Source: Actinomycetes bacterium | GTDB lineage: Bacteria > Actinomycetota > Acidimicrobiia > Acidimicrobiales > Acidimicrobiaceae | Reading direction: 5' to 3' | Length of the DNA: 35,921 nucleotides | NCBI GenBank assembly: GCA_021822605.1 | Contig: JAKAQL010000020.1 | Span: 1-35,921, forward strand | Program-made: the position numbers and the translations under genes | Shown here: in pieces, positions 1,868 through 26,912 of the stretch | Numbering within the stretch: the stretch's first letter is position 1 | Layout: every line of letters starts with the position of its first letter | Notes under the pieces: model-generated | The model's database searches: none | Seen by the model: the letters and a program-made list of their open reading frames with translations, nothing else | What the model was told of the DNA's origin: nothing

Positions 1868-1897
1868 TTGACAGCCGTATGCTGACAGGAGTACGCT
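1868..1897 (+). promoter_or_regulatory. Candidate sigma-70-type promoter for the Hyf-like operon
   Basis: TTGACA (1868-1873) and TACGCT (1892-1897) are separated by 18 bases. A start near 1904 would give a leader of roughly 95 bases before the first gene at 2000. This is a consensus match by eye only. Confidence 0.4.
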
Positions 1898-1999
1898 GTA
1901 CCCAAAGGGTGATGGAGTCCACCTTGCACCGCCGTTTTGGCTGATGACTCCTCTGTCAAGGCGAAGCAATAGTCGTTTGTTCGGCTAAGGCTTGTCGAG

Positions 2000-2977
2000 A
2001 TGGAGGGTTTGTCGAGACAGGGGAGTTATCGGCTGGTGAGCGAGGTGCTGCTACAGGTCTGCCAAGTGCTGACGATTATGTTGTTGTCGCCGTTGATCCA
2101 TGGCTTCATCGTCTGTGCTGAAGAGCGCGTGCAGGGAAGCCGTGGGCCCTCGATCCTGCAACCGTATCGAGATCTGTGGAAGTACTTGCATAAGGAACAG
2201 CTGTTACCAGCATCAGCGTCCTTTATTTTTTGGCTCGCTCCCATTGTCGCCTTTGTTGCAATGATGACTGTCCCTATGCTGATTCCGGTCTTGACAAATT
2301 TTCCCCTCCCACTCTCCAATATCGGTGACATCCTCGGTGGTGGTCTCATCTTGACGTTGGCGGCATTTTTTCTCAGTCTCGCAGGCCTTGATACTGGTCA
2401 TCCCTACGGAGGTATGGGAAGTTCGCGGGAGTCGATTCTGGCTATCCTCGCAGAGCCGAGCCTGATCATGGTCTTCATCGGCATCACGTTGTTGGCGCAG
2501 TCGATGCTTCCTTTTGTAGTCAACCATCTTTTGGTGGCGAGCCTTGCCACCTATCTCAGCCCTGCTCACCTCTTCTTCGTGGCTTCGTTTCTGATCCTGC
2601 TGACAGTGGAGACTGAGCGATTGCCGATACACTCCTCGATCCATTACGAGGTCTACATGATCGGAGAGGCGCGCATCCTCGAATATTCGGGTCCGATGCT
2701 TGGCCTTATCCGCTGGTCATCGTGGATGAAACAAGCCATCCTTTACACCATATTTTTGAATGTCCTGGCCATCCCATGGGGGCTCTCCTCCAACGGATCG
2801 GTCTCGACGGTCGCACTGAGTGTGGTGGTGCTGTTGGGCAAGTGGCTTTTGGTCGCTATCGTCATGGTGGTCGTGGAGACGGTGCAGTCGAGATTGCGCT
2901 TCTTTCGGTACCAGGAGCCCCTTGCCCTCGCTCTCGTCTTGGCGATCCTGGCCGTGGTGGCAAGGCAAGTCCTATGA
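2000..2977 (+). CDS. hyfC: HyfC/NuoH-like membrane subunit of Ehr-type complex
   Basis: 325 residues, about eight membrane helices. The cytosolic loop QGSRGPSILQPYRDLWKYLH (about 46-65) is the hallmark of the HyfC/HycD/NuoH family. The later stretch with ETERLP and YEVYMIGEARILEYSG matches the acidic-residue loop that in complex I lines the quinone entry and proton path. In the family this subunit anchors the hydrophilic arm to the membrane arm. ATG 2000 has AAGG 9 bases upstream. A GTG near 2036 behind GGGGAG would remove 12 residues and is an alternative. The stop overlaps the next ATG by four bases (ATGA), which suggests translational coupling. It is the first of six genes; the symbol is the nearest family label, not proof of hydrogenase function. 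Confidence 0.85.
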   Translation: MEGLSRQGSYRLVSEVLLQVCQVLTIMLLSPLIHGFIVCAEERVQGSRGPSILQPYRDLWKYLHKEQLLPASASFIFWLAPIVAFVAMMTVPMLIPVLTNFPLPLSNIGDILGGGLILTLAAFFLSLAGLDTGHPYGGMGSSRESILAILAEPSLIMVFIGITLLAQSMLPFVVNHLLVASLATYLSPAHLFFVASFLILLTVETERLPIHSSIHYEVYMIGEARILEYSGPMLGLIRWSSWMKQAILYTIFLNVLAIPWGLSSNGSVSTVALSVVVLLGKWLLVAIVMVVVETVQSRLRFFRYQEPLALALVLAILAVVARQVL

Positions 2978-3654
2978 ATCTGATAGCGCACCATCCGATC
3001 GTGAGCGCAGTTTTGAGCCTTGCGCTCTTTGTCGTACTCATTCTGAGCTTTGCAATCCTCGGCTCACACTGGGTGCGCAATCATGTCTATGCCTTCACGG
3101 CTCAATCTTGGGTCATAGCGGCGGTCTCGGTGATGGTGGCGCTCTGGGGACATTACCCGTTGCTCTATGGTATCGCTGTTTTGACCATCGTCGTCCGAGG
3201 TCTACTGATCCCGTTTCTGGTCATTCGATTGCTGGATCGAACGGGAGTTGGACGGGAGCAGGCACCCATACTGCGATCGAGTTCGACGTTGGTCATCGGT
3301 GGTGTCTTGGTGATCTTGGCGTTGGTGATCGCGGAGGAGATTCACCACCAACTCCTAGGTCTGCCGGCGATCGACGTACTTGCATTGACGGTGCTTTTGG
3401 GGGTCGAGTTCATCGCCTTCTTAATGCTGACGTTAAGAACCGAAGCACTCTCGAGTCTGCTTGGTCTGCTGATGATAGAGAATGGGGTTCTGGCCGGCTC
3501 GGTGATTCTCGTACCCGGATTGCCGTTCTTTCTTGAGATCGTGTTCCTCTTCGACTTACTGATTATTATCGCCACCTATGCCGTTTTGGCTCGATCCATA
3601 CGAAGTCACCTGGGCGTGACCGATGTGCGTGTCATGAAGGAGCTTACGGGATGA
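2974..3654 (+). CDS. hyfE: HyfE-like membrane subunit
   Basis: 226 residues from the ATG that overlaps the hyfC stop (ATGA at 2974-2977). The protein is almost entirely hydrophobic with six to seven predicted helices. Its C-terminal half (ERTEALSSLLGLLMIENGV region, written here in part as LLGLLMIENG) resembles HyfE/HycP and the NuoK-like fold: a short glutamate-bearing helix followed by FFLEIVFLFDLLIIIATYAV. HyfE is thought to act as a NuoK-like proton-channel part. The frame stays open upstream of 2974, but that part only overlaps hyfC in another frame, so the longer start is rejected. It ends in a second ATGA overlap with hyfF. Confidence 0.8.
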   Translation: MNLIAHHPIVSAVLSLALFVVLILSFAILGSHWVRNHVYAFTAQSWVIAAVSVMVALWGHYPLLYGIAVLTIVVRGLLIPFLVIRLLDRTGVGREQAPILRSSSTLVIGGVLVILALVIAEEIHHQLLGLPAIDVLALTVLLGVEFIAFLMLTLRTEALSSLLGLLMIENGVLAGSVILVPGLPFFLEIVFLFDLLIIIATYAVLARSIRSHLGVTDVRVMKELTG

Positions 3655-5123
3655 TTTGGATTCTTGTCTTTATCATCTTGGCGGTTACCCTTGCGGCGGC
3701 ACTTGTCTCACTCGTCGCCCCGAGACCGGTGGTGGCGGAGTTGGCGAACCTTACGGCGGCTGTGACGGACCTTGTGCTCATCCTTTGGCTGTTTGCAATT
3801 GTGCCGAGCCGCGGTGTCGTCGGTATCGATTCCCTCTTGTTGATCGACCCATTTGGGGTGTGGGTACTGGTTTGCTTAGGGTTGGTCTACCTGTTGGCAA
3901 CCGTGTACGCACGAGGCTACCTCCGTGGTCAGGGACGGTCCCCCCGTTCGCTGCGCATCTTTTACAGCCTTTTTGCCTGCTTCGCTCTGGTGATGATCCT
4001 CTCGTCAATTCAAAACAATCCTGGACTCTATTGGGTCGGTATCGACCTGACCACACTGATCAGTGCCATTCTTGTCGGTCTGGAGCCGCATCGGCGTGCT
4101 GTTGAAGCAGCTTGGAAGTATCTGGTCATCGTGGCGGTTGGGCTATCGCTCGCCCTCATTGGCACCGTTCTATTCTATTTCGCTGGCACCTTTGTGCGAG
4201 GTGCCAGCTATCCGATGACATGGGAGAGCTTTGCAAGAATTGCCCCCAGGGCGGATCCAGCACTGCTGCTGGTGGCCTTCTTGCTCGTATTGATAGGCTA
4301 CGGCACCAAGGCCGGTCTTGCTCCGATGCACACCTGGTTGCCCGATGCTCACAGCGAGGGTCCGACGCCGGTGTCGGCGATGCTCTCTGGAGGGCTCCTT
4401 AACTGCGCAATGTTGGGGATTGTGCGCTACCTCGGAATCCTCCGCCACACGAGTATGGGCGGGGATGCGAGTCGATCCCTAGTCGTTCTAGGGGTGGCGA
4501 GCCTGGTGGTCGCTGCGTTGTTCATCACCCGCCAGCGAGGAGTGAAGCGACTCGCAGCGTACTCGAGCGTGGAACACATTGGCATTATTGCTCTTGGTTT
4601 TGGTTTCGGTGGCGTGCTCGGAACGGTTGGTGCGCTGTACCAGATGGTGAATCACTCACTCACCAAGTCCGCCGTCTTTTTTGGTGCAGGCAATGCTATT
4701 GAGGCTTATGGTACTCGACAGATAGCTGGTATTCGTCGTATCGGAGATCGTTTCCCGGTGATGGGTGCCGCTTGGCTAGCAGCAGCTTTTGCTGCTGTGG
4801 GAGCCCCTCCTTTTGGTCTCTTCTTGAGCGAGTTCACCATCGCTCGAGGTGGGATCGCCAGTGCTAACCCGTGGGCAGTTGGTGTCATGGGTGTGGCACT
4901 GATCGTCATCTTTGTGGGTTTCATGACCCACTTCCGCAAGATGTTCTTCTCCAGCCCTCGTCCCCACGCATCTGGGGCTGATGCGCTCCGGGTTACACTT
5001 CCCATCACGTCTGTGGCTCCCATGGTTGTGGCAGTGTTGGTTGTTCTTGTGCTCGGCGTTTGGTGGCCGCACCCACTTTGGGTCTACTTCACGCATATCG
5101 CCTCGACGCTCGGGGGTCACTGA
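3651..5123 (+). CDS. hyfF: HyfF-like antiporter-type subunit (NuoL/M/N family)
   Basis: 490 residues, about 14 helices. The proton-conducting transporter domain is canonical: GYGTKAGLAPMHTWLPDAHS followed by GPTPVSAMLSGGLLN carries the conserved channel Lys and the His of the HTWLPDAH motif. RQRGVKRLAAYSSVEHIGII and NHSLTKSAVFFGAGN match the second half. In the family it moves H+ or Na+ across the membrane, driven by redox change in the hydrophilic arm. The start ATG overlaps the hyfE stop; its own TGA shares a base with the hyfG ATG (TGATG). It is one of three Mrp/NuoL-type proteins in the window, with those at 7399 and 25382. Confidence 0.88.
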   Translation: MIWILVFIILAVTLAAALVSLVAPRPVVAELANLTAAVTDLVLILWLFAIVPSRGVVGIDSLLLIDPFGVWVLVCLGLVYLLATVYARGYLRGQGRSPRSLRIFYSLFACFALVMILSSIQNNPGLYWVGIDLTTLISAILVGLEPHRRAVEAAWKYLVIVAVGLSLALIGTVLFYFAGTFVRGASYPMTWESFARIAPRADPALLLVAFLLVLIGYGTKAGLAPMHTWLPDAHSEGPTPVSAMLSGGLLNCAMLGIVRYLGILRHTSMGGDASRSLVVLGVASLVVAALFITRQRGVKRLAAYSSVEHIGIIALGFGFGGVLGTVGALYQMVNHSLTKSAVFFGAGNAIEAYGTRQIAGIRRIGDRFPVMGAAWLAAAFAAVGAPPFGLFLSEFTIARGGIASANPWAVGVMGVALIVIFVGFMTHFRKMFFSSPRPHASGADALRVTLPITSVAPMVVAVLVVLVLGVWWPHPLWVYFTHIASTLGGH

Positions 5124-6637
5124 TGAAGTCGTGGAATGAAGTCTCGATTGGTGAACCAGGCGAACTCGTCTCGCTTCTCTCAGAGCTCATTGTTGACCCA
5201 GAGCAAGCGCCACGAACCTATCGACGATTGCAAGCGATCTGGGCGCGGCGGACTTCAGAGGGGATCGAGTTGAACTACCTCGCCAGTAGCGGCCAGGGTG
5301 AACCCTTCAAACTGTGGAGATTGTTCGTCGCACCTGGCTCGGGTGTGCCGTCCCTGGCAATGCTCATCCCTTTGGCGGGTTCCTATGAACGCGAAATCGC
5401 CGATCTCTATGGGATCCGGTTCGAGGGAGCTCCTGATCAACGACGGTTGGTCTTGCATGAAGGTTCTCGTGCCCCAGATGGCTTTCTCGGACTAGCAGGG
5501 AGTTACTCAGATCCGTTCGCGTTTGTGTCAACCCCAACGGAGATGCCCAGAGTTGGCGGTGACGATCTTCAGCAGCTACGTTTCGGTCCTGTTCGTGCAG
5601 ATGTGGTGGAGTCCGGGAGCTTTACCTTCTCCTACGCGGGCGAGGGTATCGTACACTTGGAGACCAGACTTTTTTACAAACATCGAGGGATGGAGACTCG
5701 GTTTGAAGGGAGGTCGATCCAGTCCGGCTCACTGCTCGCTGAACGCGTCTCAGGCGTTGACAGTGTGGCCCATGGCCTCGCGTTCGCGCTCGCTTGTGAA
5801 GATGCCCTTCAACTCAGGGTCCCGACTCGGGCACAACAGTTGCGTGTGCTCCTGGCTGAACTGGAACGATTATATAACCATCTTCAGTACTTTGGGCTGT
5901 TGTCGAAGTTGACGACGTTGAAGGTGGCCGACGCCGAGGGACACTATCTGGCAGAGCTGGTAAAACAGCTCAACGCTCGGCTGAGCGGAGGCCGTTTCCT
6001 TCGTGGTCTTGTCGTCCCAGGTGGGTTGCGCCGCGATCTCGTGACCGACGAGGTGGGGGATGTTCTGAATGAATTGGAGGAGCAGGCGCACACCTACCTC
6101 TCTGCACTAGCGGGCACGCGGAGCTATCTTGACCGACTGGAGACCACTGGCATGCTCAGTGCACAGGTGGCGCTTGCGCAGGGCGCCACTGGCCCGATTG
6201 AGCGCGCGAGTGGGCTTGATCGCGATCTTCGCCGCGACCATCCCTACAGCGGCTACGACCGCTACCACTTCGCAGTACCCGGTGCAACTATGGGTGACGC
6301 AAGGGCCCGTGCACTGATCCGAGAGCATGAGATCTTTGCCTCCTTCGCCATCCTTGGTCAGGTGATTGCCCAGCTTGAGGATGGTCCGGTGTTTGTCGCC
6401 GATGATTCCAGACGATCGGCGGAGGCCTTTGGCGGGATGGGATGGGTAGAGGCTACCCGTGGGACTCTGATCTATGTGGTCTATGGTGAAGACGGATATC
6501 TTTCGAGAGTGAAGATTAAAGAGCCATCCTTCTCGAATTGGCGTGTCTTTCCCTATACCGTCGATGGAACCAACATGATGGATTATGCGATCAACGAGGC
6601 GAGTTTCGGCCTCTCGGTGGCTGGGAATGATCGATAG
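5123..6637 (+). CDS. hyfG: HyfG/NuoCD-like large subunit lacking all NiFe ligands
   Basis: 504 residues from ATG 5123. Residues 1-130 form a NuoC-like (30-kDa) domain with YEREIADLYGIRFEGAPDQR. The rest is the 49-kDa/large-subunit domain starting at HLETRLFYKHRGMETRFEG. In group 4 NiFe hydrogenases the next segment reads RVCGxC; here it is RVSGVD (S210, D213). The C-terminal CxxC is also missing: the protein ends in an INEASFGLSVAGNDR-like tail typical of complex-I-related proteins. The only cysteine in the protein is C225. It therefore cannot bind NiFe and is best placed with the Ehr (energy-converting hydrogenase related) group. The substrate at this site is unknown; quinone is one option by analogy with NuoD. 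Coupled to hyfF by a TGATG overlap. Confidence 0.85.
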   Translation: MKSWNEVSIGEPGELVSLLSELIVDPEQAPRTYRRLQAIWARRTSEGIELNYLASSGQGEPFKLWRLFVAPGSGVPSLAMLIPLAGSYEREIADLYGIRFEGAPDQRRLVLHEGSRAPDGFLGLAGSYSDPFAFVSTPTEMPRVGGDDLQQLRFGPVRADVVESGSFTFSYAGEGIVHLETRLFYKHRGMETRFEGRSIQSGSLLAERVSGVDSVAHGLAFALACEDALQLRVPTRAQQLRVLLAELERLYNHLQYFGLLSKLTTLKVADAEGHYLAELVKQLNARLSGGRFLRGLVVPGGLRRDLVTDEVGDVLNELEEQAHTYLSALAGTRSYLDRLETTGMLSAQVALAQGATGPIERASGLDRDLRRDHPYSGYDRYHFAVPGATMGDARARALIREHEIFASFAILGQVIAQLEDGPVFVADDSRRSAEAFGGMGWVEATRGTLIYVVYGEDGYLSRVKIKEPSFSNWRVFPYTVDGTNMMDYAINEASFGLSVAGNDR

Positions 6638-6649
6638 GAGGTAGGGTCG

Positions 6650-7399
6650 GTGTCGGTATGGACCTATCGCGGTCTTCGAGGTGGAGTAAGGACCATCGGA
6701 TGGCCACTCGAAGAGGTCTCTGGGATGATGGGCCTGCCGGTGCCCACCGCTCATCGTTGTCCAGAGGGCTGTGAACGCTGCGCGCAAAGCTGTCCGACGG
6801 AGGCGATCACGATCGATGATGGAGGGGTGGAGCTTGACCATGGCGCTTGCATTGACTGCAAGTTATGCGTTGAAGTGTGCCCGTTTGGGATTCTCTCACC
6901 GACGACCAGTCTGACCCGTGCGAGTAGTGACCGAGATGCGCTGCGTCGCCGTTCCGACGTTGAACCTGCTCCTCCTACGTTACAGCCGACGAAGCACCAA
7001 CGGTGGTTACGTAAGAGTCTTTTTGTCCGCCATATCGACTGTGGTTCATGTAACGGTTGTGAATCGGAGATCACAGCCCTCGATAACCCTTACTACAACC
7101 TTCATCGATTCGGAGTGTTCTTCACCCCGTCGCCACGCTTTGCAGATGTGTTGTTGGTGACAGGACCGATAACGAGTCCCATGCATGACCCTCTCGTTGC
7201 GACGTATGAAGCAATGCCAGGACCGAAGTACGTGATCGCCACGGGTGTCTGTGCGATCTCAGGAGGAACCAACGGAGGGGGTTACAACGCACACCGTGGT
7301 CTCGGTGGAGTCGTTCCTGTCGATCTATGGCTCCCCGGGTGTCCACCGCATCCGGCGGTTATCGCTGATGCCCTGCTCGCGCTCGTAGGGAGGACTTGA
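6650..7399 (+). CDS. hyfI: Ferredoxin-NuoB fusion, HyfH/HyfI-like small subunit
   Basis: 249 residues. GTG start with an ideal GGAGGT 7 bases upstream. The N-terminal ferredoxin part holds two cysteine motifs: C37, C41, C44, C48 (first gap CxxxC instead of CxxC) and a regular C67, C70, C73, C77-Pro. A charged linker (about 85-120) leads to a NuoB-like domain with CGSCNGCESE (C131, C134, C137), GVCAISGG (C201) and PGCPP (C231). These are the ligands of the N2-type cluster next to the large subunit. HyfH and HyfI are normally separate proteins; here they are one chain. It should pass electrons from an unknown donor to the NiFe-less large subunit. No NADH- or formate-oxidising subunit is encoded in the window. 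The stop overlaps the next ATG. Confidence 0.85.
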   Translation: MSVWTYRGLRGGVRTIGWPLEEVSGMMGLPVPTAHRCPEGCERCAQSCPTEAITIDDGGVELDHGACIDCKLCVEVCPFGILSPTTSLTRASSDRDALRRRSDVEPAPPTLQPTKHQRWLRKSLFVRHIDCGSCNGCESEITALDNPYYNLHRFGVFFTPSPRFADVLLVTGPITSPMHDPLVATYEAMPGPKYVIATGVCAISGGTNGGGYNAHRGLGGVVPVDLWLPGCPPHPAVIADALLALVGRT

Positions 7400-9372
7400 T
7401 GAGTGCGCCCCAGCTCGCAACCCTTGGCATGATGATCGCTGTGGCACTCCTGCTTGTGGGTGCTGGCCTCAATCTGCTGCGTCTCTCTTCCCGGTTCCCA
7501 GTTATTGCTCACAGAGTGGTATTGATTGGTGTGCTCATCGCGTTGGTCGCTGATATCGCTGGTCTGCCAAGGGGAACGAGCTCGCTGCGTCTGTTCGTCC
7601 TCGGGAACCAGCCCCTGGTGTGGCACATGGACACCGCATCGCTGCTCATCTTGGCCCCCGCTTGGTTGGCCGTAGCCTTGGCGGTCGCGGTACGCAGTCA
7701 CCAGGGCGGTTGGTGGTCACTTGGTGTCGCGACTGCGCTGATAGGTGTTTTCTGTCTTGCGGGTTTGAATAATGGTGCCGCAATGATTATCGGCTGGGAG
7801 CTCATGAGTCTGGGTAGTGCGGTGATGATCCTTTCCATCCGGTCCGATACCAGAGGTTCTAAGGCGACTCTGACGATGTTGGCACTCCTTGAGGTCGGCA
7901 GTGTCGCTCTCGTCATGGCTGTCGCACTGTTGGGGCCACATCTTGGATTCGCTGGTTTCCGGGGTGACTGGGGTGCTCGCGGCATCGTAGTCTCCTCCAT
8001 CATCGGCCTGCTCTTCCTGGTTGGTTTTGGAGCCAAGCTGGGGGTGGCGCCGCTGTATGCGTGGGTGGCCGAGACGTACGGATCTGCCGATGGACCGACC
8101 GGCGCTATTTTTTCATCGCTGATTCTGAACACAGCGTACTTCGCCCTGGGTCGTGCGTTGCTGCGATGGCTTCCGGTTCACGCGAGTTCGACGCTGTTTC
8201 TTGGGGTGACGGTCGCAGCTCTTGGCATGCTCTCGGCGATCATCGCAATTCTCTACGCTTTTCAACAGGGAGATTGGCGTCGGCTGCTCTCCTTGTCCGG
8301 TGTAGAAAATGGAGGCATCGCTATTGGAGCACTTGGAGCGGCGCTGATTTTTCAAGCGGGAGGGCAACAGGAGCTCGCCGGGCTTTGCTGGTTGATCGGG
8401 ATCCTGCACTTGATGGGTCATAGCCTCGCGAAGGCAGGTCTGTTTCTCGCTGCATCAGTCAAGAAGGAGCGAGATGGGAATCATCGGATTGTCCAGACTG
8501 GCCTCGGACATGAGTACCCTTGGACGGTGGGGGTCGGAGGTCTGATCGCGTCCATGAGCCTATCGGCCATGCCGCCAGCGATGGGATTTGTCACCGAATG
8601 GCTCCTCTTTGAGGCACTCTTCCACGACTTCACTCTTGCCTCGTTGGCCGGACGGACGACCCTTATTCTTGTGGGAGCGGGACTTGCACTTTCAGCGGCA
8701 TTGAGCCTGGCGACGTTTGTCAAACTCTATGGCGTAGGGCTCCTCGGTGCCAGGCGACCAGGCAGATCGGTCGCCGTCGGTCACCGACTCGCAGTACTCG
8801 TTCTTGGGCTGGCGAATCTCACTGGGGCCATCAGTCTCGTTTTTTGGGAGTCATTGATGTGGCGCGCGTCATGGCCAGATCCTGCGAGTGCGAAGGCTCT
8901 TGTGAATGGTTTATTGATCGTCCCCTTATCGGATAGCTTTGCCTTTATCTCACCGGTTCAATTGATGATTGTGGGGGTACTCTTTGCGTGTGTTCCAATC
9001 GCGCTGCTGCTGCGTCGATCAAAGTCGCGTCGAGTGCCGCTCTGGAGTGGAGGGGAGACCGTGGACGTGGTGGCGAGCGCGACCACAGCCTTTGGTTTCT
9101 CTAATCCGTTGCGGACTGTCTATTCATTTCTCTACCGTCCGAAGACATCGTCTGAACGCACCTATCGTGACCAGGGCTATGTACTTGAACAGGCCACGTA
9201 CCACACGAGGGAGGCCCCGATCCTTGGAGCTGGTTTGATCCAGTCGTTGCGCCGGGGAGTCAACCGTCTTGCTCGAGTGCTGAGTCCCCTTCAAGGGGGT
9301 CAACTCAACGTGTACCTGAGCTATCTCTTCATCCTGTTCTTGGTCGTAGTGCTCGCCATCTTCGTGCACTGA
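7399..9372 (+). CDS. hyfB: HyfB-like antiporter-type subunit (NuoL family)
   Basis: 657 residues, about 14-16 helices. ATG 7399 shares a base pair run with the upstream TGA, behind GGGAGG with a 5-base gap; a TTG three bases earlier is less likely. WELMSLGSAVMIL and GFGAKLGVAPLYAWVAETYG match the HyfB/NuoL core. The usual PxHxWLPxAH signature is changed to PLYAWVAETY, so the channel histidines are lost while the Lys of GAKLG is kept. A cytosolic C-terminal segment (about 540-620, SGGETVD to PLQGGQLNVYLSYL) is the tail seen in HyfB and related proteins. It is the last gene of the operon, followed by 163 bases without a gene. Confidence 0.82.
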   Translation: MSAPQLATLGMMIAVALLLVGAGLNLLRLSSRFPVIAHRVVLIGVLIALVADIAGLPRGTSSLRLFVLGNQPLVWHMDTASLLILAPAWLAVALAVAVRSHQGGWWSLGVATALIGVFCLAGLNNGAAMIIGWELMSLGSAVMILSIRSDTRGSKATLTMLALLEVGSVALVMAVALLGPHLGFAGFRGDWGARGIVVSSIIGLLFLVGFGAKLGVAPLYAWVAETYGSADGPTGAIFSSLILNTAYFALGRALLRWLPVHASSTLFLGVTVAALGMLSAIIAILYAFQQGDWRRLLSLSGVENGGIAIGALGAALIFQAGGQQELAGLCWLIGILHLMGHSLAKAGLFLAASVKKERDGNHRIVQTGLGHEYPWTVGVGGLIASMSLSAMPPAMGFVTEWLLFEALFHDFTLASLAGRTTLILVGAGLALSAALSLATFVKLYGVGLLGARRPGRSVAVGHRLAVLVLGLANLTGAISLVFWESLMWRASWPDPASAKALVNGLLIVPLSDSFAFISPVQLMIVGVLFACVPIALLLRRSKSRRVPLWSGGETVDVVASATTAFGFSNPLRTVYSFLYRPKTSSERTYRDQGYVLEQATYHTREAPILGAGLIQSLRRGVNRLARVLSPLQGGQLNVYLSYLFILFLVVVLAIFVH

Positions 9373-9535: not shown

Positions 9536-11068
9536 GTGACAAGTTCTCGTGCTCGCGGCGTGTTGATTGCAGGCACCGGTTCCAATGTTGGAAAGTCATT
9601 GATCGTTACCGGTCTCTTGCGTTGGTGCCGCCATCGAGGAATTGCGGTTGCACCATTCAAGGGTCAGAATATGGCGTTGAACTCGGCTGTAACCATCGAC
9701 GGTGGAGAGGTCGCTCGAGCCCAGGCGGTTCAGGCTCGCGCTGCTGGGGTTGATCTCAGCGTTGCGATGAACCCAGTGCTCATCAAACCAACTGGAAAAC
9801 AGCGATCGCAGCTGATTGTACGCGGTCGTCCGGTCGGTGAAATCGCTAGTGGTCGATGGATAGCGACAAAACGTGAGCTGCTCGCTACCGTCGTCGCGGC
9901 CTTTGAAGAGCTGAGTGTGTCTTACGAGCTGATCATCGCCGAGGGAGCAGGGTCTGCTGCCGAGATCAACCTTTTAGAGGGTGATCTAGCCAATCTTAGG
10001 TTTGCGCAAGCGGTAGGACTCGGAACGGTCCTCGTGGGCGACTTGGAGCCAGGGGGTGTTCTTGCATCGATCTACGGTCACTACACGCTGCTGCCAGAGG
10101 CATACCGGAGTCTGTTGCGAGGTTTTGTGATCAACCGTGTCAGGGGCGACGGAAGTATTCTCCAACCCGGCATCGAGGTACTCACACGACGACTTGGGAC
10201 CCGCTGGTTTGGAAACCTGCCGATGATCGATGGGTACCTTCCAGGCGAGGATGCCATCAACCTCGGCACGACACAGCCTGGTCTGTGGAGACCGACTGCG
10301 ACAGGGAATCGACGGGTGAGTCAGGCTCCAATCCGGGTGCGAGTGGTGGAGTTGCCCTATTTGGCGAACTACACCGACTTTGACCCACTTACCCTGGAAC
10401 CCGACGTCGATCTTCGCTTTGTCCGGCGGGCCGAGGATCTCGGCGATGCCGATCTCGTCATTCTGCCAGGAACCAAAGCGACGGTCACCGCGCTCTCATG
10501 GCTGAGGTCAGCAGGATTTGCACCGCAGCTCGAACGTGTTCTCGAGCAGGGGTGTTGGCTTCTTGGCATCTGCGGTGGTTATCAGATCCTCGCCGAGCAG
10601 ATCGATGACAGTGTCGAGTCGGAGGCGGGTCATGTCAACGGTCTCGGTCTCCTAAGAGCTGAGGTGGTCTTCGAGGCGGAGAAGGTATTGGCCAACGTCG
10701 TTGGGGTAGCTCCTGGCTTCCATCAGGCGCGGGTAGCTGGTTACCAAATTCATCATGGACGTGTCCTTGCAAAGGAAGATCCGTTCTTTATGTTGGAGGG
10801 TGCTGATCACGGACAAGGTGACGCGTTGGTGCCTGAGGGGGCAAGTCGCGAGGGGCAGATCTATGGGACCACACTCCATGGCCTTTTTGATGAGGACACG
10901 CTGCGCTCACACTTTCTCTCGTCGCTCGCCCGGTCCCGTGGACGCTCCTTCACGAGTCAGCTGCACTTTGACGATTTGCTGGAGACGAGCCTCGATCATC
11001 TTGGAGAGATTGTTGGCGCGAGCCTCGATGTTTTCCAGCTTCTGGGACTTACGAGTCCAGGCGGCTAG
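9536..11068 (+). CDS. cobQ: Cobyric acid synthase CobQ
   Basis: 510 residues, normal for the family. GTG start with GAGG about 6 bases upstream. The N-terminal ATP-binding domain has the P-loop GTGSNVGKS, then GQNMALNSAV and the family signature AEGAGSAAEINL. The C-terminal type I glutamine amidotransferase domain has the nucleophile C346 in LLGICGGYQIL and H448 in TLHGLFDED. CobQ amidates the b, d, e and g side chains of adenosylcobyrinic a,c-diamide with glutamine nitrogen in the cytosol. It starts a cobalamin cluster: cobN begins 41 bases downstream. No B12-box or cobalamin-riboswitch signature is visible in the 163 bases upstream. Confidence 0.95.
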   Translation: MTSSRARGVLIAGTGSNVGKSLIVTGLLRWCRHRGIAVAPFKGQNMALNSAVTIDGGEVARAQAVQARAAGVDLSVAMNPVLIKPTGKQRSQLIVRGRPVGEIASGRWIATKRELLATVVAAFEELSVSYELIIAEGAGSAAEINLLEGDLANLRFAQAVGLGTVLVGDLEPGGVLASIYGHYTLLPEAYRSLLRGFVINRVRGDGSILQPGIEVLTRRLGTRWFGNLPMIDGYLPGEDAINLGTTQPGLWRPTATGNRRVSQAPIRVRVVELPYLANYTDFDPLTLEPDVDLRFVRRAEDLGDADLVILPGTKATVTALSWLRSAGFAPQLERVLEQGCWLLGICGGYQILAEQIDDSVESEAGHVNGLGLLRAEVVFEAEKVLANVVGVAPGFHQARVAGYQIHHGRVLAKEDPFFMLEGADHGQGDALVPEGASREGQIYGTTLHGLFDEDTLRSHFLSSLARSRGRSFTSQLHFDDLLETSLDHLGEIVGASLDVFQLLGLTSPGG

Positions 11069-11109
11069 CCTGTTCTAGGGCCGGCGCTAGGGTCCAACGG
11101 GAGGAATGC

Positions 11110-14100
11110 GTGGAGAAGTTTGTCTATCTGACCAATGCCGATACTGAGGTCCTGGCTTTGCGCAGCGTCTGGGAGGACCTGGGGGAGGACTTCGGACTGG
11201 TCGTGCGCCAGATCGATACGTTGACCGAGGTCGATGATCTCATCGATCATGCCCGCATCGTTGTTGTCCGTCTGCTCGGTGGTGCCCAGGCGAGCCGATG
11301 GTTTCTCCAGATTGTCGCTCGCTGTCGACAGCGCGACATCCCTCTTGTGAGCTACCCCGGGGACAATGCTCTCGATCGAGAGATGATGGAGGCATCCACG
11401 GTATCTGCTGGCATTTGGGAGGAGGGGTTCCGATACTTGGTCGAGGGGGGAGTGGCTAATCTTGGGAACTTTGTCCGCTTCCTTTCTGATACCGTCACAA
11501 GAACTGGCTACGGCTTCGGCGCTCTCGAAGAGGTGCCAGCTTTTGGCTGCCTCATGCGCACGGCTCACGATGAGCCGGTCGGCCGCATCGCGGTGATCAT
11601 CTACCGTGCCCACGTCATCTCCGGCAATTTATCCTTTGTTCGAGATCTTGTGGACGTTGCGGTACAGAACCGATTGGCGATCGATGTCTATTATGCCTAT
11701 TCACTGCGTGTTGGCGAAGGGGAATCCTCGGTGGTGGGGTTGATCAGTGAGACTCCACCCGATGTCATTTTGGCGACGGTTCTTGCTGCTGGCCACGCCG
11801 ACGCACTGGCTTGGGAGGCAGGCGGACTCGCCGACCTTGGTGTGCCGGTTTTGCAGGCGCTCATTGCGACGACACCACGGTCGCAATGGCAGGAGAGCCA
11901 GGCGGGGCTTCGTCCAGTTGATGTGGCGATGAATGTTGCGATGCCGGAGTTCGATGGCCGCATCATCACCATCCCAATCGCCTTCAAAGAGTTAATCGAT
12001 GAGGATGAGGGTTTTGGTGCAAACATCAGCGCCTATCGACTGGATCATGAGCGTACCCAGCGTTTGATGGACCTGACTCTTCGTCTTGTCCGTCTTCGAC
12101 ACAAGGAGAATGCCACCAAGCGGATCGCGATTGTCCTCTCAGCGTATCCAACCAAGCGTTCGCGACTCGGCAACGCGGTCGGACTCGATACCCCAGCGAG
12201 TCTGATGGCCCTTGCCCGTCGGATGGAACAGGAGGGTTACCATATCCTGGGGCTGCTCGACGATGCGGACACACTCATGGCTCGTCTTGGCGATCTGATC
12301 GATTACGAGCATCCTTCGGTGAGGTCGGGTGGTGGAATCGCTCTCCCGGTTGACACCTATACCCGCTGGTTCCATACCCTGCCTGATGAGTTGCAGACGG
12401 CTGTGATCGCAAATTGGGGACCGCCACCAGGGTCGATCTACCTCGAGGATGATCGACTCGTCTTCCCCGCGTTGCAGTTTGGCAACCTGACAGTGGCGAT
12501 TCAGCCGCCACGAGGTTATGGCGAGAACCCGATTGCGATTTACCACTCACCCGAACTGCCACCGACGCACCACTATCTGGCCTTTTATCACTGGTTGGAG
12601 GCCATCGCCGACGTTGATGCTCTCTGCCATCTAGGGAAGCACGGAACCGCTGAATGGCTTCCAGGTAAATCAGTTGGCATGGGACCGACCTGTTATCCCG
12701 ATACGATCCTTGGGGCGTTGCCGGTTATCTATCCCTTCGTAATCAACGATCCAGGGGAGGGAACTCAGGCGAAACGACGCACGCATGCGGTTCTCGTTGG
12801 CCATCTTGTGCCGCCGATGACCCGGGCGGAGAGCTATGGTGACCTTGCACGGCTTGAGATGTTGATGGACGAGCATCAACGGATCAGTGCGCTCGATCCC
12901 GAGAAACTACCAGCCATTCGGGCGGAGATCTGGAACCTGATCGAAGCGGCGCGGCTCCACGAGGATATGGGCGTCACCGACACCCCTGACGTTGAACAGG
13001 ATCTCTTTGACGATTTTCTCCTCCACGTAGACGGTTATCTGTGCGAGCTCAAAGATTCTCTCATTCGAGGTGGGCTCCATATTCTTGGTGATCCGCCAGT
13101 TGGTCAGGCACTGATCGATATGTTGGTCGCGATCACGCGAATGCCACAACTCAACGCCGGAGCCCTGCGGCCATTGGTCACAGGTGGGTCAACTACTCCC
13201 ACGAGGCTCGAGATGGATGAGGATGACGAGCGAGTGACCGAGCTTCTTTGGGCCTACGCTGATCACCGCTACGATATGAAAATCTTTGATGATTTCGATT
13301 TCTGCCAATCGCTTGGACTCGAGTACCCCCTTGGTGATGAGCTGAGAGAGGTGCTGCAATGGATTGGCGCGGTGTTGGTGCCGAATCTGGAGGCGACTAC
13401 TGGAGAACTCGATGCGGTCCTAGCGGCACTGAAGGGCCAGGCGATTGCCGCCGGACCTTCTGGGGCTCCGACTCGGGGGATGGCGCACGCGCTACCGACG
13501 GGCCGAAATTTTTACTCGGTTGACCCGCGATCATTACCAACGCAGATCTCATTCCTCACTGGCCAACGCCTAGCTGAGGCGATGGTTCTTCGGTTCGTGG
13601 CCGAGCACGACGGTCGCTATCCGAGGAGCGTCGGCGTCGTGCTCTGGGGAACGGCAGCTATGCGTACAGGGGGAGATGACATCTCAACTGTCCTGGCACT
13701 GCTTGGGGTTTGGCCGGAGTGGGATCAGATTTCGCACCGTGTGAACGGACTCCGTGTGGTGCCGATCGAAGAGCTCGGCCGGCCACGGGTGGATGTTACC
13801 TGTCGTATCTCCGGCTTCTTTCGTGACGCCTTCCCTGGGGCGATTGACCTACTCGACGAGGCATTCGAGCTGGTGGCGAAGGAGACCTCCGAGGGTGAGC
13901 TCAACCCAGTCGCGCAAGCCGGGGTCACCGAGAGAATCTTTGGCCCGTCGCCACGTTCCTATGGTTCAGGGATTTTGCCGCTTCTTGAGAGCCGATCGTG
14001 GCATGATGATCGTGACCTGTCGGAGGTCTACTTGACGTGGAGCGGATTCAGCTACTCCCGCAGCGGACACGGGGTGCCTAACCGTCGCCTGCTTGAACAG

Positions 14101-14652
14101 CGACTCGAGACACTCGAGGTGGCGTATAAGGCGCAGGATAACCGGGAGCATGACATCTTTGACTCCGATGACTACCTCCAGGATCACGGTGGTATGGTCG
14201 CGGCGGCTCGGGCGCTAGGGGCCCGCGACGTTCAGGGATACTTTGGCGACTCTGCTGACCCACAACGACCTAGGGTTCGCGGAATCGAGGAGGAGGCCGC
14301 GAGGGTGGTCCGCTCGCGTGTGCTGAATCCGAAGTGGTTGGATGCGATGATGAACCATGGTTACAAGGGCGCCTTTGAGATGGCAGCAACGGTCGATTAT
14401 CTCTTTGGTTACGACGCAACCGCACACGTAGCCAAGGACTGGATGTACGACGCTGTGCAGGACAGTTATGTCGACGACTCGAACCGACGGGCTTTCCTCA
14501 CAAAGGTCAACCCTACTGCGTTGGTATCGATTTGTGAGCGGTTACTCGAGGCTCACGAGCGAGGTATGTGGGCGGCGTCGCCAGAGCGAATATCCGATCT
14601 GCGCAGGGCAATTGTCGGTATCGAGGGTGATCTTGAGGCGGATGCAAGATGA
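11110..14652 (+). CDS. cobN: Cobaltochelatase large subunit CobN
   Basis: 1180 residues. GTG start with GGAGGA just upstream (about 11101-11106); the nearby ATG at 11106 is out of frame. The core matches CobN/ChlH porphyrin-metallation subunits: LGKHGTAEWLPGKSVGMG, then PVIYPFVINDPGEGTQAKRR and a later SYGDLARLEMLMDEH. CobN binds hydrogenobyrinic acid a,c-diamide and inserts Co2+ with ATP hydrolysis by the AAA+ partner. Its place between cobQ and a ChlI-ChlD fusion argues for cobalt rather than magnesium. The stop overlaps the next start (ATGA), so chelatase subunits are probably made in fixed ratio. Confidence 0.93.
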   Translation: MEKFVYLTNADTEVLALRSVWEDLGEDFGLVVRQIDTLTEVDDLIDHARIVVVRLLGGAQASRWFLQIVARCRQRDIPLVSYPGDNALDREMMEASTVSAGIWEEGFRYLVEGGVANLGNFVRFLSDTVTRTGYGFGALEEVPAFGCLMRTAHDEPVGRIAVIIYRAHVISGNLSFVRDLVDVAVQNRLAIDVYYAYSLRVGEGESSVVGLISETPPDVILATVLAAGHADALAWEAGGLADLGVPVLQALIATTPRSQWQESQAGLRPVDVAMNVAMPEFDGRIITIPIAFKELIDEDEGFGANISAYRLDHERTQRLMDLTLRLVRLRHKENATKRIAIVLSAYPTKRSRLGNAVGLDTPASLMALARRMEQEGYHILGLLDDADTLMARLGDLIDYEHPSVRSGGGIALPVDTYTRWFHTLPDELQTAVIANWGPPPGSIYLEDDRLVFPALQFGNLTVAIQPPRGYGENPIAIYHSPELPPTHHYLAFYHWLEAIADVDALCHLGKHGTAEWLPGKSVGMGPTCYPDTILGALPVIYPFVINDPGEGTQAKRRTHAVLVGHLVPPMTRAESYGDLARLEMLMDEHQRISALDPEKLPAIRAEIWNLIEAARLHEDMGVTDTPDVEQDLFDDFLLHVDGYLCELKDSLIRGGLHILGDPPVGQALIDMLVAITRMPQLNAGALRPLVTGGSTTPTRLEMDEDDERVTELLWAYADHRYDMKIFDDFDFCQSLGLEYPLGDELREVLQWIGAVLVPNLEATTGELDAVLAALKGQAIAAGPSGAPTRGMAHALPTGRNFYSVDPRSLPTQISFLTGQRLAEAMVLRFVAEHDGRYPRSVGVVLWGTAAMRTGGDDISTVLALLGVWPEWDQISHRVNGLRVVPIEELGRPRVDVTCRISGFFRDAFPGAIDLLDEAFELVAKETSEGELNPVAQAGVTERIFGPSPRSYGSGILPLLESRSWHDDRDLSEVYLTWSGFSYSRSGHGVPNRRLLEQRLETLEVAYKAQDNREHDIFDSDDYLQDHGGMVAAARALGARDVQGYFGDSADPQRPRVRGIEEEAARVVRSRVLNPKWLDAMMNHGYKGAFEMAATVDYLFGYDATAHVAKDWMYDAVQDSYVDDSNRRAFLTKVNPTALVSICERLLEAHERGMWAASPERISDLRRAIVGIEGDLEADAR

Positions 14653-16370
14653 GTAGTCAACTCGCCTTTGATGCCGTCGTCGGTCAGTCGAAGGCGAAGC
14701 TAGCGTTGCGGCTGTTAGCGGTCGATCCCACCATCGGAGGTGTGTTGCTCGTTGGTCCCCCAGGCTCAGCGAAGACGACGCTCGCCAGAGGATTGGCAAA
14801 GCTGCTTGGGGCGGCTGCTCCATTCATTGAGATTCCCCTCGGCTCCACTGAGGACCGCGTGAAGGGTAGTATCGACGTCGCCTCGGTCCTTGCAGGGGGA
14901 GAGGTGCGAGTCCAGAACGGCTTGCTTGCGATGGCGCATGGCGGCGTGCTCTACATCGATGAGATCAATCTGCTCGCCGACCACGTTGTTGATCTCATTC
15001 TTGATGCAGCAGCAACGGGTGTAAACCGCGTTGAGCGCGATGCGGTATCCGTTGTTCAACCAGCACGCTTCTCGTTGATAGGAACGATGAATCCCGAAGA
15101 AGGTGAACTCCGTCCTCAGCTTCTCGATCGCTTCGCAATGACCGTACAGGTGGATCCGCTGATGGATCCAAACGATCGCCAGCTCGCATTGCGGCGGCGA
15201 CTAGATGCGGAACTCGATCGGGAGGTCGACTTGAACGCGGACGCAATCGCCGGGGTTGCGATCGACGAAGCCCGTGCCCATCTGATGGAGGTTGCTCTCG
15301 AGGCACAGCTGGAGGGAATCGCCCGCCGCTGTGCGGAACTGGGCATCGGATCGCTTCGCGCTGATGTTGCCGTTGCGAAAGCTGCGAGGGCAAACGCTGC
15401 GCTCAGTGGCAGGAACTGGGTGGAGGAGTCAGACGTTGATTGCGTGATGGAGCTGATCGTGGGGCATCGCCAGCGGCTGGAACCTCCCTCTGGCCAGCCA
15501 AGGTCTCGGCCAGGGCCCGATGAGCCTCCAAATCGTCAAGAGGAGCAACAGGGGGACCAGCCTGACACAGGCGCGGATAACACCGATGTCTCCTCGCACG
15601 GAAGTGGCTACGGCGGATCAGATGGCAGCATCCGCGATCTTCCGGAGGAACCATCACAAGCGAACTTTGGAGAGCGCCTGGCCTCGTTGACGAGGAGGAA
15701 GGGAAACGTCGAAGGTCAAGGTGCGGAGGTTGCTCGTCATCATGAAGTTGTGAAGTCTGGTGCTTTTTCGTTGACACGCACCATCGTGGCCCGGCTTGGG
15801 CGTAGCGGTCCTGGGGGATTGTCACCCGAGGATGTTCGATATCTTGAGATCGAACGAGCTCAAAAACGTTGTGTCATCTTCGTTGTCGATGTCTCTGCCT
15901 CGGTTGCGGGTCGAGAGGCGACAGCGCTCGTGATTGAGGCGATAGAGCAGTTGCTTGGTACTGCCTACAGGGAGCGAGCACAGGTGGCGGTCGTCTCTTT
16001 CGGAGGCGAGACCGCGCAGGTCAGCTTGCGGCCGACCCGATCGCTCGAGGTCGCGCGAACGAGGCTGCTTGGTCTTGAACGCGCCGGTAGAACCCCGCTG
16101 GCACGGGGTCTTGCTGCTGGTCGAGATCTCGCTCTTGACTTGAGGAGGCGAGGAACGGAACCCCTCTTAGTGGTGCTCACTGATGCGCGTCCCAACGAAG
16201 TCGGCATCGATGATCCTTTCGCCGCCGCCCTTGATCAGGCTAGACGGTTGGCCAAAGGAGGACTAGAGGTAGTCATCGTTGATCTTGAGTCAAATACCTT
16301 CAGATTGGGGTTCGCCGAACAGCTAGCACAGGCGGCCAACGCATTGTACGTGCAAGCCCAGGCCTCATAG
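14649..16370 (+). CDS. ChlI-ChlD fused AAA+/VWA chelatase subunit
   Basis: 573 residues. Residues 1-270 are a ChlI-type AAA+ ATPase: Walker A GPPGSAKTT (K42), Walker B VLYIDEINLL, and GTMNPEEGELRPQLLDRF. A Pro/Gln/Asp-rich linker (about 275-330) leads to a von Willebrand A domain with an intact MIDAS motif DVSAS (D414, S416, S418) and VLTDARPNE. The protein replaces the separate CobS/CobT pair: many actinobacteria pair CobN with such a fusion. ATG overlaps the cobN stop. It is short for a ChlD-like protein because the ChlI-like half lacks extra inserts. Magnesium chelatase is the alternative reading, but no chlorophyll genes are present. Confidence 0.88.
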   Translation: MSSQLAFDAVVGQSKAKLALRLLAVDPTIGGVLLVGPPGSAKTTLARGLAKLLGAAAPFIEIPLGSTEDRVKGSIDVASVLAGGEVRVQNGLLAMAHGGVLYIDEINLLADHVVDLILDAAATGVNRVERDAVSVVQPARFSLIGTMNPEEGELRPQLLDRFAMTVQVDPLMDPNDRQLALRRRLDAELDREVDLNADAIAGVAIDEARAHLMEVALEAQLEGIARRCAELGIGSLRADVAVAKAARANAALSGRNWVEESDVDCVMELIVGHRQRLEPPSGQPRSRPGPDEPPNRQEEQQGDQPDTGADNTDVSSHGSGYGGSDGSIRDLPEEPSQANFGERLASLTRRKGNVEGQGAEVARHHEVVKSGAFSLTRTIVARLGRSGPGGLSPEDVRYLEIERAQKRCVIFVVDVSASVAGREATALVIEAIEQLLGTAYRERAQVAVVSFGGETAQVSLRPTRSLEVARTRLLGLERAGRTPLARGLAAGRDLALDLRRRGTEPLLVVLTDARPNEVGIDDPFAAALDQARRLAKGGLEVVIVDLESNTFRLGFAEQLAQAANALYVQAQAS

Positions 16371-26908: not shown

Positions 26909-26912
26909 CGTG

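Follow-up and report, generated by a model that had tools for sequence, protein, structure and literature searches.

What does a hydrogenase-like complex do when it lacks a hydrogenase site, and when might a cell need it? The question is raised by six genes near one end of a 35,921-nucleotide stretch of DNA from a member of the Acidimicrobiaceae (this whole stretch is called the window here). All six are open in the ORF list of the window, in the order C-E-F-G-(ferredoxin-HyfI)-B given by the initial annotation, and their matches in Pfam and NCBIfam (the latter all below the curated cut-offs) are to a NuoH-like protein, to hydrogenase-4 subunits E, F and B, to a large subunit of the 30-kDa plus 49-kDa type, and to a ferredoxin joined to a NuoB-like protein (Table 1). 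The hyfE-like gene gave no Pfam match in a profile search; it can be aligned with that for E. coli HyfE. The tight coupling proposed for the genes was borne out, but in place of three ATGA overlaps there are two (at 2974 and 3651) and two of the form TGATG (at 5121 and 7397), with a spacer of 12 bases between hyfG and the ferredoxin-hyfI gene, which starts with GTG. The start of hyfC is probably GTG at 2036 rather than ATG at 2000, because the resulting length of 313 aa is found in all five of the genus relatives examined, and because a GGGGAG lies 10 nt upstream of this GTG.

Table 1. Features of the hyf operon and its leader in the window
Feature	Position	Strand	Evidence
Promoter-like TTGACA-N18-TACGCT	1868..1897	+	Consensus match only; directly before aptamer
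Predicted fluoride riboswitch aptamer (Rfam RF01734, crcB motif)	1899..1960	+	47.3 bits (gathering score 34), E 1e-10
Predicted expression platform	1939..2034	+	1939-1957 (3' side of aptamer, including pseudoknot strand ACUCC) can pair over about 19 bp with 2016-2034
hyfC (NuoH-like)	2036..2977	+	PF00146, 99.1 bits
hyfE-like membrane subunit	2974..3654	+	Hydrogenase 4 membrane subunit model, 31.6 bits (below cut-off of 136)
hyfF, antiporter-like subunit	3651..5123	+	PF00361, 157 bits
hyfG, large subunit (30-kDa + 49-kDa type)	5123..6637	+	PF00346, 141 bits; 504 aa
ferredoxin-hyfI fusion: two-cluster ferredoxin domain + HyfI (proximal-cluster subunit)	6650..7399	+	PF01058, Fer4 models
hyfB, second antiporter-like subunit	7399..9372	+	PF00361, 88 bits

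The sole cysteine of HyfG is C225, and there is no CxxC pair, as had been noted. The residues aligned with C241, C244, C531 and C534 of E. coli HycE are S, D, S and G, in the motifs RVSGVDSVAH and LSVAGNDR; the four cysteine ligands of a group 4 [NiFe] hydrogenase are absent. The alignment also reveals no C-terminal extension of the HycE type, the terminal AGNDR being aligned with the CTDR of HycE, which continues for 32 residues further. In group 4 [NiFe] hydrogenases such an extension, which is not universal in the group, is removed during maturation. By both sequence (164.9 bits) and fold (TM 0.87 for a predicted structure with pTM 0.86), the best match of HyfG in the PDB is to HycE of formate hydrogenlyase (7z0s_E); for the Mbs/Mbx sulfane-sulfur or ferredoxin oxidoreductases the sequence comparison gave 99.7 bits with 6u8y_L. 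Compared with the genome's own NuoD (encoded in a nuo cluster on contig C40), HPSTH is replaced by RADVV and the Tyr of RMDY by Gly. The His and Tyr concerned are quinone ligands in NuoD of complex I, and HyfG has no quinone ligands of that type.

Could the metal site be missing only by accident? A true hydrogenase disfigured by sequencing errors can be dismissed, since relatives from many other genomes carry the same replacements in both motifs, and in a tree HyfG falls in a clade without NiFe ligands, and not among true hydrogenases. Nor was a partner large subunit with intact CxxC motifs found to complete the complex: the others found in the genome are the NuoD of complex I, the large subunit of a second Ehr complex, likewise free of cysteine ligands, and that of a [NiFe] hydrogenase encoded elsewhere, next to hyp genes. 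The search for maturation genes that had been recommended found HypD in the genome, so lack of maturation is not the reason for the missing site. The complex is therefore assigned, on its subunits and alignments, to the Ehr (energy-converting hydrogenase-related) type, as initially suggested: Hyf/Ech-like subunits, a large subunit without NiFe ligands, and antiporter-like membrane subunits carrying ion-path residues. Such complexes were reportedly described by Coppi in 2005 and by Marreiros in 2013. As also stated at the outset, no NADH, formate or CO dehydrogenase partner was seen in the window (ORF lists inspected by eye, Pfam on part of them), nor a NuoEFG module among its ORFs or HyfD, HyfA or HyfR genes in the operon (both by eye). 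The transglycosylase gene upstream shows no tie to the complex. CobQ/CobN-sized genes follow hyfB in four members of the genus (L044, L045, L046, L048) and other genes do so in the wider set, so cobalamin genes were not retained as partners. Two clusters (K0, K1) were ignored because they resemble reading frames on the opposite strand of GC-rich Ehr genes.

A feature absent from the initial annotation, a predicted fluoride riboswitch in front of hyfC, gives the complex a physiological context. The score of the aptamer exceeds the curated cut-off for RF01734, its pseudoknot strands (GGAGU/ACUCC) are complementary, and it is one of two RF01734 sites listed for the whole genome; the other, at 33.4 bits just below the cut-off, precedes a MutS-type ATPase pair, upstream of which are two CrcB genes. 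A promoter-like TTGACA-N17/18-TANNNT occupies the same place in seven of 11 operons compared. The downstream partner strand of the expression platform contains the GGGGAG ribosome-binding site of hyfC, and the leader has a predicted fold of -67 kcal/mol, with a z-score of -5.46 relative to shuffled sequences. Seven operons were folded; in every predicted structure the ribosome-binding site downstream is paired to the pseudoknot strand, two of the seven having unremarkable z-scores. In this folding model, a leader with an open pseudoknot can hide the hyfC ribosome-binding site. On sequence grounds, then, the element is a predicted fluoride riboswitch with predicted control over the hyf operon.

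How general is the association? Operons with hyfC first and hyfB last form one clade (SH-aLRT 100) in a tree of 92 of the 127 large subunits (six short, doubtful or redundant rows were dropped and 29 close relatives thinned); the tree was made by a quick method and includes long branches, and its deep-branch order (support 90) is not firm. The clade is also marked by the ferredoxin-HyfI fusion, and the predicted regulation by the switch is fixed in it. Among the loci listed, 38 of its operons were testable, and a canonical switch precedes all 25 of those in the window's branch (counted with its basal relative, L128), including 13 of 13 named ones; it was likewise present before all 11 operons of the window's own family examined in that branch. 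The 13 testable operons of the sister branch comprise one with a canonical switch, nine with a variant and three with a weak one, most of these being below the Rfam cut-off or seen solely by a custom pattern. The nine variants were found by pattern and have complementary strands (L054, L060 and L066 reach 25.0 to 28.5 Rfam bits, below the cut-off, and L055 and L065 rest on the pattern search), and the weak ones are L057 (26.9 Rfam bits), L135 (18.0 bits with our model R1) and L145 (by eye only). Scans of the leaders of 58 hyfB- or hyfI-first operons among the loci listed revealed no switch at all, including the 24 that start with arsR when the arsR leader was scanned; nine of the 58 encode four-cysteine large subunits, and three further operons of this kind had too short a leader.

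The aptamer pattern in its strict form occurred in none of 2000 shuffled leaders and in 28 of the 42 C-first operons with sufficient leader (four more had too little). Seven of the 14 it missed (L049, L090, L097, L098, L099, L102, L159) score above the Rfam cut-off or strongly with R1, a model whose scores are circular for 16 of the sites it picked up, these having served to build it; three are the weak sites named above; four others (L061, L079, L111, L131) have large subunits of other types near a contig end, with no switch seen. L160 was excluded as a copy of L060, L009 (complex I) was left out of the counts, and two partial operons with a switch were not counted (L094, minus strand, 48.4 R1 bits; L100, at 4983, 24.6 R1 bits). 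The named set is at least 80 loci from one contig scan, and not a census. In three cases (G257, G344, L159) a distance of about 0.9 to 1.3 kb separates the switch from hyfC, and that it controls hyfC directly is less certain for these; in L159 it precedes a gene that looks by eye like one for a phosphatase, followed by hyfC. Across 349 genomes of Burkholderiales, for which the listing covered large subunits with E values of 1e-32 or lower, a switch was found with all five testable close relatives, four of them in new genomes (the fifth, from G062, is not new, this being the L098 genome of the discovery set). It accompanied only one of 106 other large subunits, which likewise lacks the cysteine ligands and is encoded in an operon of the same order; these 106 are not all testable, as seven plus-strand ones begin less than 5 kb from a contig start, contig ends are not known for minus-strand ones, and the stricter filters can lose weak sites. 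Fluoride-related genes are sometimes close by (Pfam): CrcB and enolase follow hyfB in L275, CrcB is a neighbour in L088, DUF190 and enolase in L093, and enolase in both L135 and L273, the L273 gene having a switch of its own.

If the complex is not a hydrogenase, is it still equipped to move ions and electrons? HyfF retains the TM7 Lys, both His and the TM12 Glu, with Asp for the TM5 Glu and Asn for the TM8 Lys (the latter as in E. coli HyfF), and HyfB keeps its ion-path Glu, Lys and His. Within the window's branch the TM7 Lys and TM12 Glu are invariant in HyfF (24/24) and HyfB (23/23), as are three Glu in HyfC (20/20), and the pump residues are retained in the sister branch too. The ferredoxin-HyfI protein of the window has all eight ferredoxin cysteines as well as C134, C137, C201 and C231, with the hydrogenase-type CxxC motif for the proximal cluster found in E. 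coli formate hydrogenlyase and hydrogenase 4. All four proximal cysteines are present in the 28 rows from the window's branch and L128, and ferredoxin cluster II in all 42 of the whole clade. The electron wire as far as the proximal cluster is intact in the window's branch, whereas the 14 sister-branch subunits have put D (14), E (11) or D (3), D (13) or E (1), and S (14) in place of the four proximal cysteines, and most have lost ferredoxin cluster I. As the sister branch has a switch but no proximal cluster, electron flow to the large subunit is apparently unneeded for a response to fluoride. Outside the clade, six of 66 subunits (L073, L082, L122, L139, L155, L157) miss at least one proximal cysteine, and loss of these residues is therefore not special to fluoride. 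The complex had been read as a redox-driven proton pump: the conserved ion path agrees with the second part of this, but the first is weakened by the losses in the sister branch.

The placing of the switch over a complex devoid of its metal site suggests that this family helps bacteria to survive fluoride rather than to make hydrogen. We infer that the window complex is a fluoride-induced ion pump or antiporter, and the operon probably specifies a fluoride-inducible, ion-translocating Ehr complex. HF leaking into the cell would release protons and fluoride, so that the proton-motive force would fall; fluoride would free the hyfC ribosome-binding site and the complex would be made; by moving protons (or a cation against protons) it would restore internal pH and membrane voltage, and the latter would serve fluoride exporters of the Fluc/CrcB type, which depend on voltage. 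In the window's branch the likely drive would be electrons from reduced ferredoxin, which three [4Fe-4S] clusters would pass on to an acceptor in or close to the former NiFe cavity. Transfer to this acceptor is the weakest step of the proposal. The cavity residues differ between branches (mostly S/D/S/G, S/G/T/G or E/A/S/G), so no single substrate site is evident.

More tentatively, the fluoride-linked Ehr complexes might represent a complex I-type line that is shedding its redox chemistry stepwise while keeping its ion path, with fluoride-triggered ion transport as the core function and the window complex as an earlier stage. The NiFe site would have been lost first, in the whole clade; the sister branch would then have exchanged its proximal [4Fe-4S] cluster for a strictly conserved carboxylate/serine site and lost ferredoxin cluster I, leaving a membrane arm without any electron input, for which a hard cation (Mg2+ with fluoride) bound where the cluster used to be might act as the gate.

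It is rather unlikely, though in keeping with the cysteine replacements and the continued presence of pump residues and switch in the sister branch, that the complex is a non-redox transporter (a fluoride-induced cation/H+ or fluoride-linked antiporter). Its soluble arm would then be a leftover with a regulatory or structural role, and the window's branch would be in the course of losing its Fe-S clusters. In one review, Na+/H+ antiporters are the most common class associated with the switch after exporters (PMC11139923). The clusters so consistently kept in the window's branch make it seem, however, that electron transfer is under selection there, and the proximal-cysteine losses outside the clade also tell against this reading. 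A general Ehr function, in line with the initial reading, would make the complex a redox-driven proton pump without specificity, useful for pH homeostasis or for conserving energy, with fluoride as only one of several inducers. This would fit the intact pump residues and the naming of a Methylacidiphilum Ehr with other genes possibly involved in pH homeostasis (PMC6688271); the reading is made improbable by the occurrence of the switch throughout the C-first clade and in none of the 58 other operons scanned, among them the second Ehr of this very genome. That the operon specifies a formate hydrogenlyase or other hydrogenase, induced to shift metabolism towards fermentation, is hardly credible in spite of the Hyf/Hyc homology and the fluoride-switch literature, as none of the switch-linked large subunits examined has all four NiFe ligands (that of L065 has one cysteine at one ligand position, and the L103 sequence ends before the second motif), HyfG stops where the CTDR of HycE stops, and no formate dehydrogenase was seen by eye in the window's ORF lists.

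How, then, does the complex compare with known systems? With the Ehr examples whose function is called unknown (PMC4378227, PMC10284858) it shares Hyf/Hyc-like subunits, the lack of CxxC NiFe ligands and the antiporter-like subunits, but its clade, its C-E-F-G-I-B order, its ferredoxin-HyfI fusion and its riboswitch set it apart. The genome's second Ehr (L007, on contig C10) has the same membrane parts and likewise no NiFe ligands, but begins with an ArsR-type gene, continues in the order I-B-C-E-F-G and has no ferredoxin domain; no fluoride switch was found in a scan of its leader. The fluoride regulon of Weinberg 2010 (PMC2864571) and of the review PMC11139923 includes 'formate hydrogen lyase', mutS, enolase and exporters, the first being interpreted in the latter source as a metabolic shift towards fermentation. 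Here the same RNA family precedes Hyf-like genes, with a MutS pair, CrcB and enolase nearby. Those sources file the genes as formate hydrogen lyase, but none of the switch-linked large subunits examined here has the NiFe site. The puzzle of the switch-linked 'formate hydrogenlyase' and that of Ehr seem to be one, the genes examined being Ehr and not hydrogenase genes. One interpretation current in work on fluoride would thereby be corrected (a literature search, with most subscription papers outside its coverage, found no paper tying fluoride to Ehr complexes), and one Ehr clade would gain an inducer, a phenotype to look for (sensitivity to fluoride and acid) and culturable hosts, among them Acidiphilium iwatense (L096), Fulvimonas soli (L095), Candidimonas nitroreducens (L098) and Paraburkholderia susongensis (L099). 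E. coli formate hydrogenlyase and hydrogenase 4, in whose hyc and hyf regions no fluoride switch was found, are closest through HycE and share the proximal CxxC; unlike them, the window complex lacks the NiFe ligands, the C-terminal extension, HyfD, HyfA and HyfR. With complex I there are NuoH-, NuoL/M-, NuoB- and NuoCD-like parts in common, together with the TM7 Lys, the TM12 Glu and the E-channel Glu, but the NADH module is absent from the operon and the HPSTH and RMDY residues are replaced. The clade may offer a series, made by nature, of complex I-like machines with fewer and fewer redox centres but a retained proton path, and so has a bearing on the coupling of redox chemistry to pumping.

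The six Hyf-type genes that the initial annotation described in the window are indeed present by ORF reading and by Pfam and NCBIfam models, and the single cysteine counted in the HyfG large subunit was borne out: in an alignment with E. coli HycE, the four residues that would bind NiFe are S, D, S and G in HyfG. Coupling of the genes by overlaps also stands, but the ATGA (three) and TGATG overlaps reported are actually two ATGA and two TGATG, and the ferredoxin-hyfI gene is preceded by a 12-base gap. The observation is confirmed, while its interpretation as a redox-driven proton pump is partly supported and is here re-centred.

Features of the window and of related loci (G000, the window's genome; L-numbers, loci in relatives or the wider set; C-numbers, contigs)
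Feature	Location	Remarks
Fluoride riboswitch	1899-1960	Rfam, 47.3 bits (cut-off 34)
hyfG large subunit	5123-6637	504 residues
CobQ-like protein (by eye), CobN/Mg-chelatase (PF02514), ChlI/VWA-type ATPase	9536-16370	After the operon; cobalamin or chelatase genes
Kumamolisin-like (sedolisin) protease	21380-22831 (-)	Pro-kuma_activ and Peptidase_S8 matches (Pfam)
DabB-like antiporter protein	25328-26908	Adjoins the DabA frames
DabA (inorganic carbon uptake), two overlapping frames	26898-27839 and 27667-29169 (span 26898-29169)	Frameshift or split gene
Second Ehr operon, ArsR-associated	L007:9092-16515 (G000 contig C10)	Order I-B-C-E-F-G, no ferredoxin domain
MutS_V ATPase pair of the window's genome	G000:C16:3626-6791 (L227)	
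Divergent G-I-B genes	L145:13468-17865 (-)	Ligand positions E, S, T, G; opposite strand of the contig with a C-first operon; fast-evolving second copy
Sister-branch HyfI with all four proximal cysteines replaced	L054-L057, L059, L060, L065, L066, L076, L135, L145, L153, L159, L163	
34 fluoride riboswitches listed for G064 (genome of L102, Paraburkholderia sp. DHOC27)	C3:51350-177321	All within ~126 kb around its Ehr operon; giant fluoride island

The operon is headed by a fluoride riboswitch, with a promoter-like TTGACA-N18-TACGCT directly 5' of it. In the predicted fold of 1899-2045 (-67 kcal/mol, z -5.46), a hairpin of about 19 bp pairs 1939-1957, containing the pseudoknot strand ACUCC, with 2016-2034, containing GGGGAG ahead of the GTG at 2036. 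The pseudoknot strand was likewise predicted to pair with the ribosome-binding site in all seven operons folded (the fold z-score being unremarkable in two, L048 and L050). This pairing suggests that the leader is an ON switch: as we infer from the structure, fluoride would form the pseudoknot and the hyfC start site would be freed.

How widely does the switch go with this gene order? Ehr (energy-converting hydrogenase-related) and hydrogenase operons were sorted by gene order before the comparison, and a uniform aptamer pattern was applied that requires complementary pseudoknot strands and a P1 stem. An aptamer was found by this pattern in 28 of 42 C-first operons (hyfC leading, as in the window's order hyfC-E-F-G-(ferredoxin-HyfI)-B) with enough leader, in none of 58 operons beginning with hyfB or hyfI and in none of 2000 shuffled leaders. 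arsR stands in front of 24 of the 58, and the arsR leaders there were also without an aptamer; nine of the 58 encode four-cysteine large subunits (L080, L109, L133, L136, L137, L142, L147, L152, L158). Within the C-first clade, all 25 testable operons of the window's branch and its basal relative L128 (the window and L044-L053, 11; L089, L090, L092-L099 and L101-L103, 13; L128) have a canonical switch by pattern plus Rfam or R1, our own model, which was built from 16 of the sites it then found and whose scores are circular for those. Among 13 testable operons of the sister branch, one is canonical (L159, where the switch precedes a phosphatase-like gene, itself 5' of hyfC), nine were picked out by the pattern, their pseudoknot strands being complementary, and three are weak (L057, L135, L145). 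The pseudoknot covaries (GGAGU/ACUCC, GGGGU/ACUCC, GGAGC/GCUCC, GAGGU/GCCUC, GAGGC/GCUUC, GAAGC/GCUUC, GAGGC/GCCUC, GGGGC/GCCUC), the pair being GGCAU/AUGCC in L097, L098, L099 and L102. Another, third type of large subunit, met in the wider set, retains three ligands of the four (C, D, C, C in L078, L079, L081 and L083), and L080 retains all four; a scan of these loci found no fluoride switch.

Another order, the Burkholderiales (that of Candidimonas), was examined in 349 genomes, giving 112 large subunits in 102 genomes and 77 switch sites in 58. Identity to the window's HyfG is 50% or more in six of the large subunits; one begins at a contig end, and in each of the five testable cases a same-strand switch lies 3.2 to 4.5 kb upstream of the large-subunit gene, close 5' of hyfC (within about 0.5 kb) in G373, G062 and G112 and about 1.3 kb 5' of it in G257 and G344. 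Four of these five genomes are new, the fifth, G062, being that of L098 (Candidimonas nitroreducens). The other 106 large subunits, not all of them testable, yielded one with a switch (G077; 3.6 kb upstream, 38% identical), whose operon likewise has the order C-E-F-G-I-B, its ligand positions being A, T, S and E.

For the window's genome together with 59 relatives, 52 switch sites were listed, 41 of them above the cut-off. Judged by position, 16 precede Ehr operons of the C-first kind, 2 a CrcB gene and 11 something else, the commonest follower being the MutS-type (MutS_V) ATPase pair, at 23. Such a pair (a single member where the contig is cut) adjoins the operon or lies close by in L047, L049, L057, L088, L093, L096, L098, L099 and L135, its MutS_V identity being confirmed by Pfam for L098. 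Fluoride genes also lie around these operons by Pfam: CrcB and enolase 3' of hyfB in L275, CrcB near the operon in L088, enolase together with DUF190 in L093, enolase in L135, and in L273 an enolase that has its own switch. The second switch of the window's genome (33.4 bits, just below the cut-off) precedes the MutS pair on C16, which has two CrcB genes upstream. Fulvimonas soli (G060) has nine fluoride riboswitches, eight of them on one contig.

The rest of the window's genome (2.82 Mb in 120 contigs) holds a full-length NuoD within a nuo cluster (C40) and, on C10, a second Ehr operon without NiFe ligands, behind an ArsR-type gene. This ArsR-associated arrangement, which resembles the mycobacterial Rv0081-Rv0087 cluster, occurs also in several actinobacterial loci of the wider set. 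The search for NiFe maturation genes suggested in the initial annotation located hyp genes on C83, adjoining a separate [NiFe] hydrogenase (HypD by search, the others by ORF reading), so that missing maturation genes do not explain the absent NiFe site of HyfG. Across the genome no second large subunit with intact CxxC motifs fitting the window's complex was found, in keeping with the initial reading.

A tree of 92 large subunits sets the C-first group (36 rows) apart from the rest by a branch of SH-aLRT 100. Next to it (support 90) stand group 4 proteins retaining three or four of the cysteines, with the ArsR-type Ehr subunits placed elsewhere; together these placements hint that the NiFe cysteines were lost more than once, the deep branch order not being firm.

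Residues of the ion path are preserved. The TM7 Lys and TM12 Glu are present in HyfF (24/24 in the window's branch, 13/13 in the sister branch) and HyfB (23/23, 12/12), as are three Glu of HyfC (20/20, 13/13); Asp replaces the TM5 Glu in 12 of the 24 HyfF (the window's included), and HyfC, like that of the other Ehr, does not conserve the Glu of NuoH positions 216 and 218. All four proximal-cluster cysteines are kept in 28 of 28 HyfI of the window's branch and L128, whereas the sister branch has D (14), E (11) or D (3), D (13) or E (1), and S (14). In the large subunits of the sister branch, Glu occupies the first of the NiFe-ligand positions. Two-cluster ferredoxins share their cysteines 3+1 between clusters, and the losses agree with this: cluster II cysteines (48, 67, 70, 73) are kept in 42 of 42, those of cluster I (37, 41, 44, 77) in 28 to 30 of 42. 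From these patterns the window's complex can carry electrons up to the large subunit, whereas the sister complexes, judged from their sequences, cannot. Fluoride-linked complexes are not alone in such losses: one or more proximal cysteines are also missing from 6 of 66 HyfI outside the clade. HyfI of L122, L139 and L155 (candidate phyla), L073 and L082 lack three of the four (e.g. D-C-D-D); other Ehr lines may have lost the proximal cluster independently.

What might such a complex do under fluoride stress? The most economical function would be transport of protons, or of a cation in exchange for protons, and we lean towards a ferredoxin-driven pump in the window's branch and non-redox transport in the sister branch. 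The parts of a 2024 review considered here link HF influx with acidification of the cytoplasm and a reduced proton-motive force, on which export depends, and rank Na+/H+ antiporters directly behind exporters among the commonest switch-associated classes (PMC11139923).

By sequence, HyfG's best relative of solved structure is HycE of formate hydrogenlyase (7z0s_E, 164.9 bits), with complex I NuoCD behind; the predicted HyfG (pTM 0.86) also has HycE as its top fold match (TM 0.87), ahead of NuoCD. In complex I, His and Tyr bind quinone; both are absent from the window's large subunit. Formate hydrogen lyase genes are listed under the crcB motif in Weinberg 2010 (PMC2864571), and the review passages place the enzyme among those most commonly associated with fluoride switches, framing it as formate oxidation in anaerobic fermentation (PMC11139923). 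Papers on Ehr describe its function as unknown (PMC4378227, PMC10284858). Judged by their ligand positions, the switch-linked complexes examined here are Ehr, which joins the fluoride-switch literature to the Ehr puzzle and gives the family a testable function, none being assigned in the papers considered.
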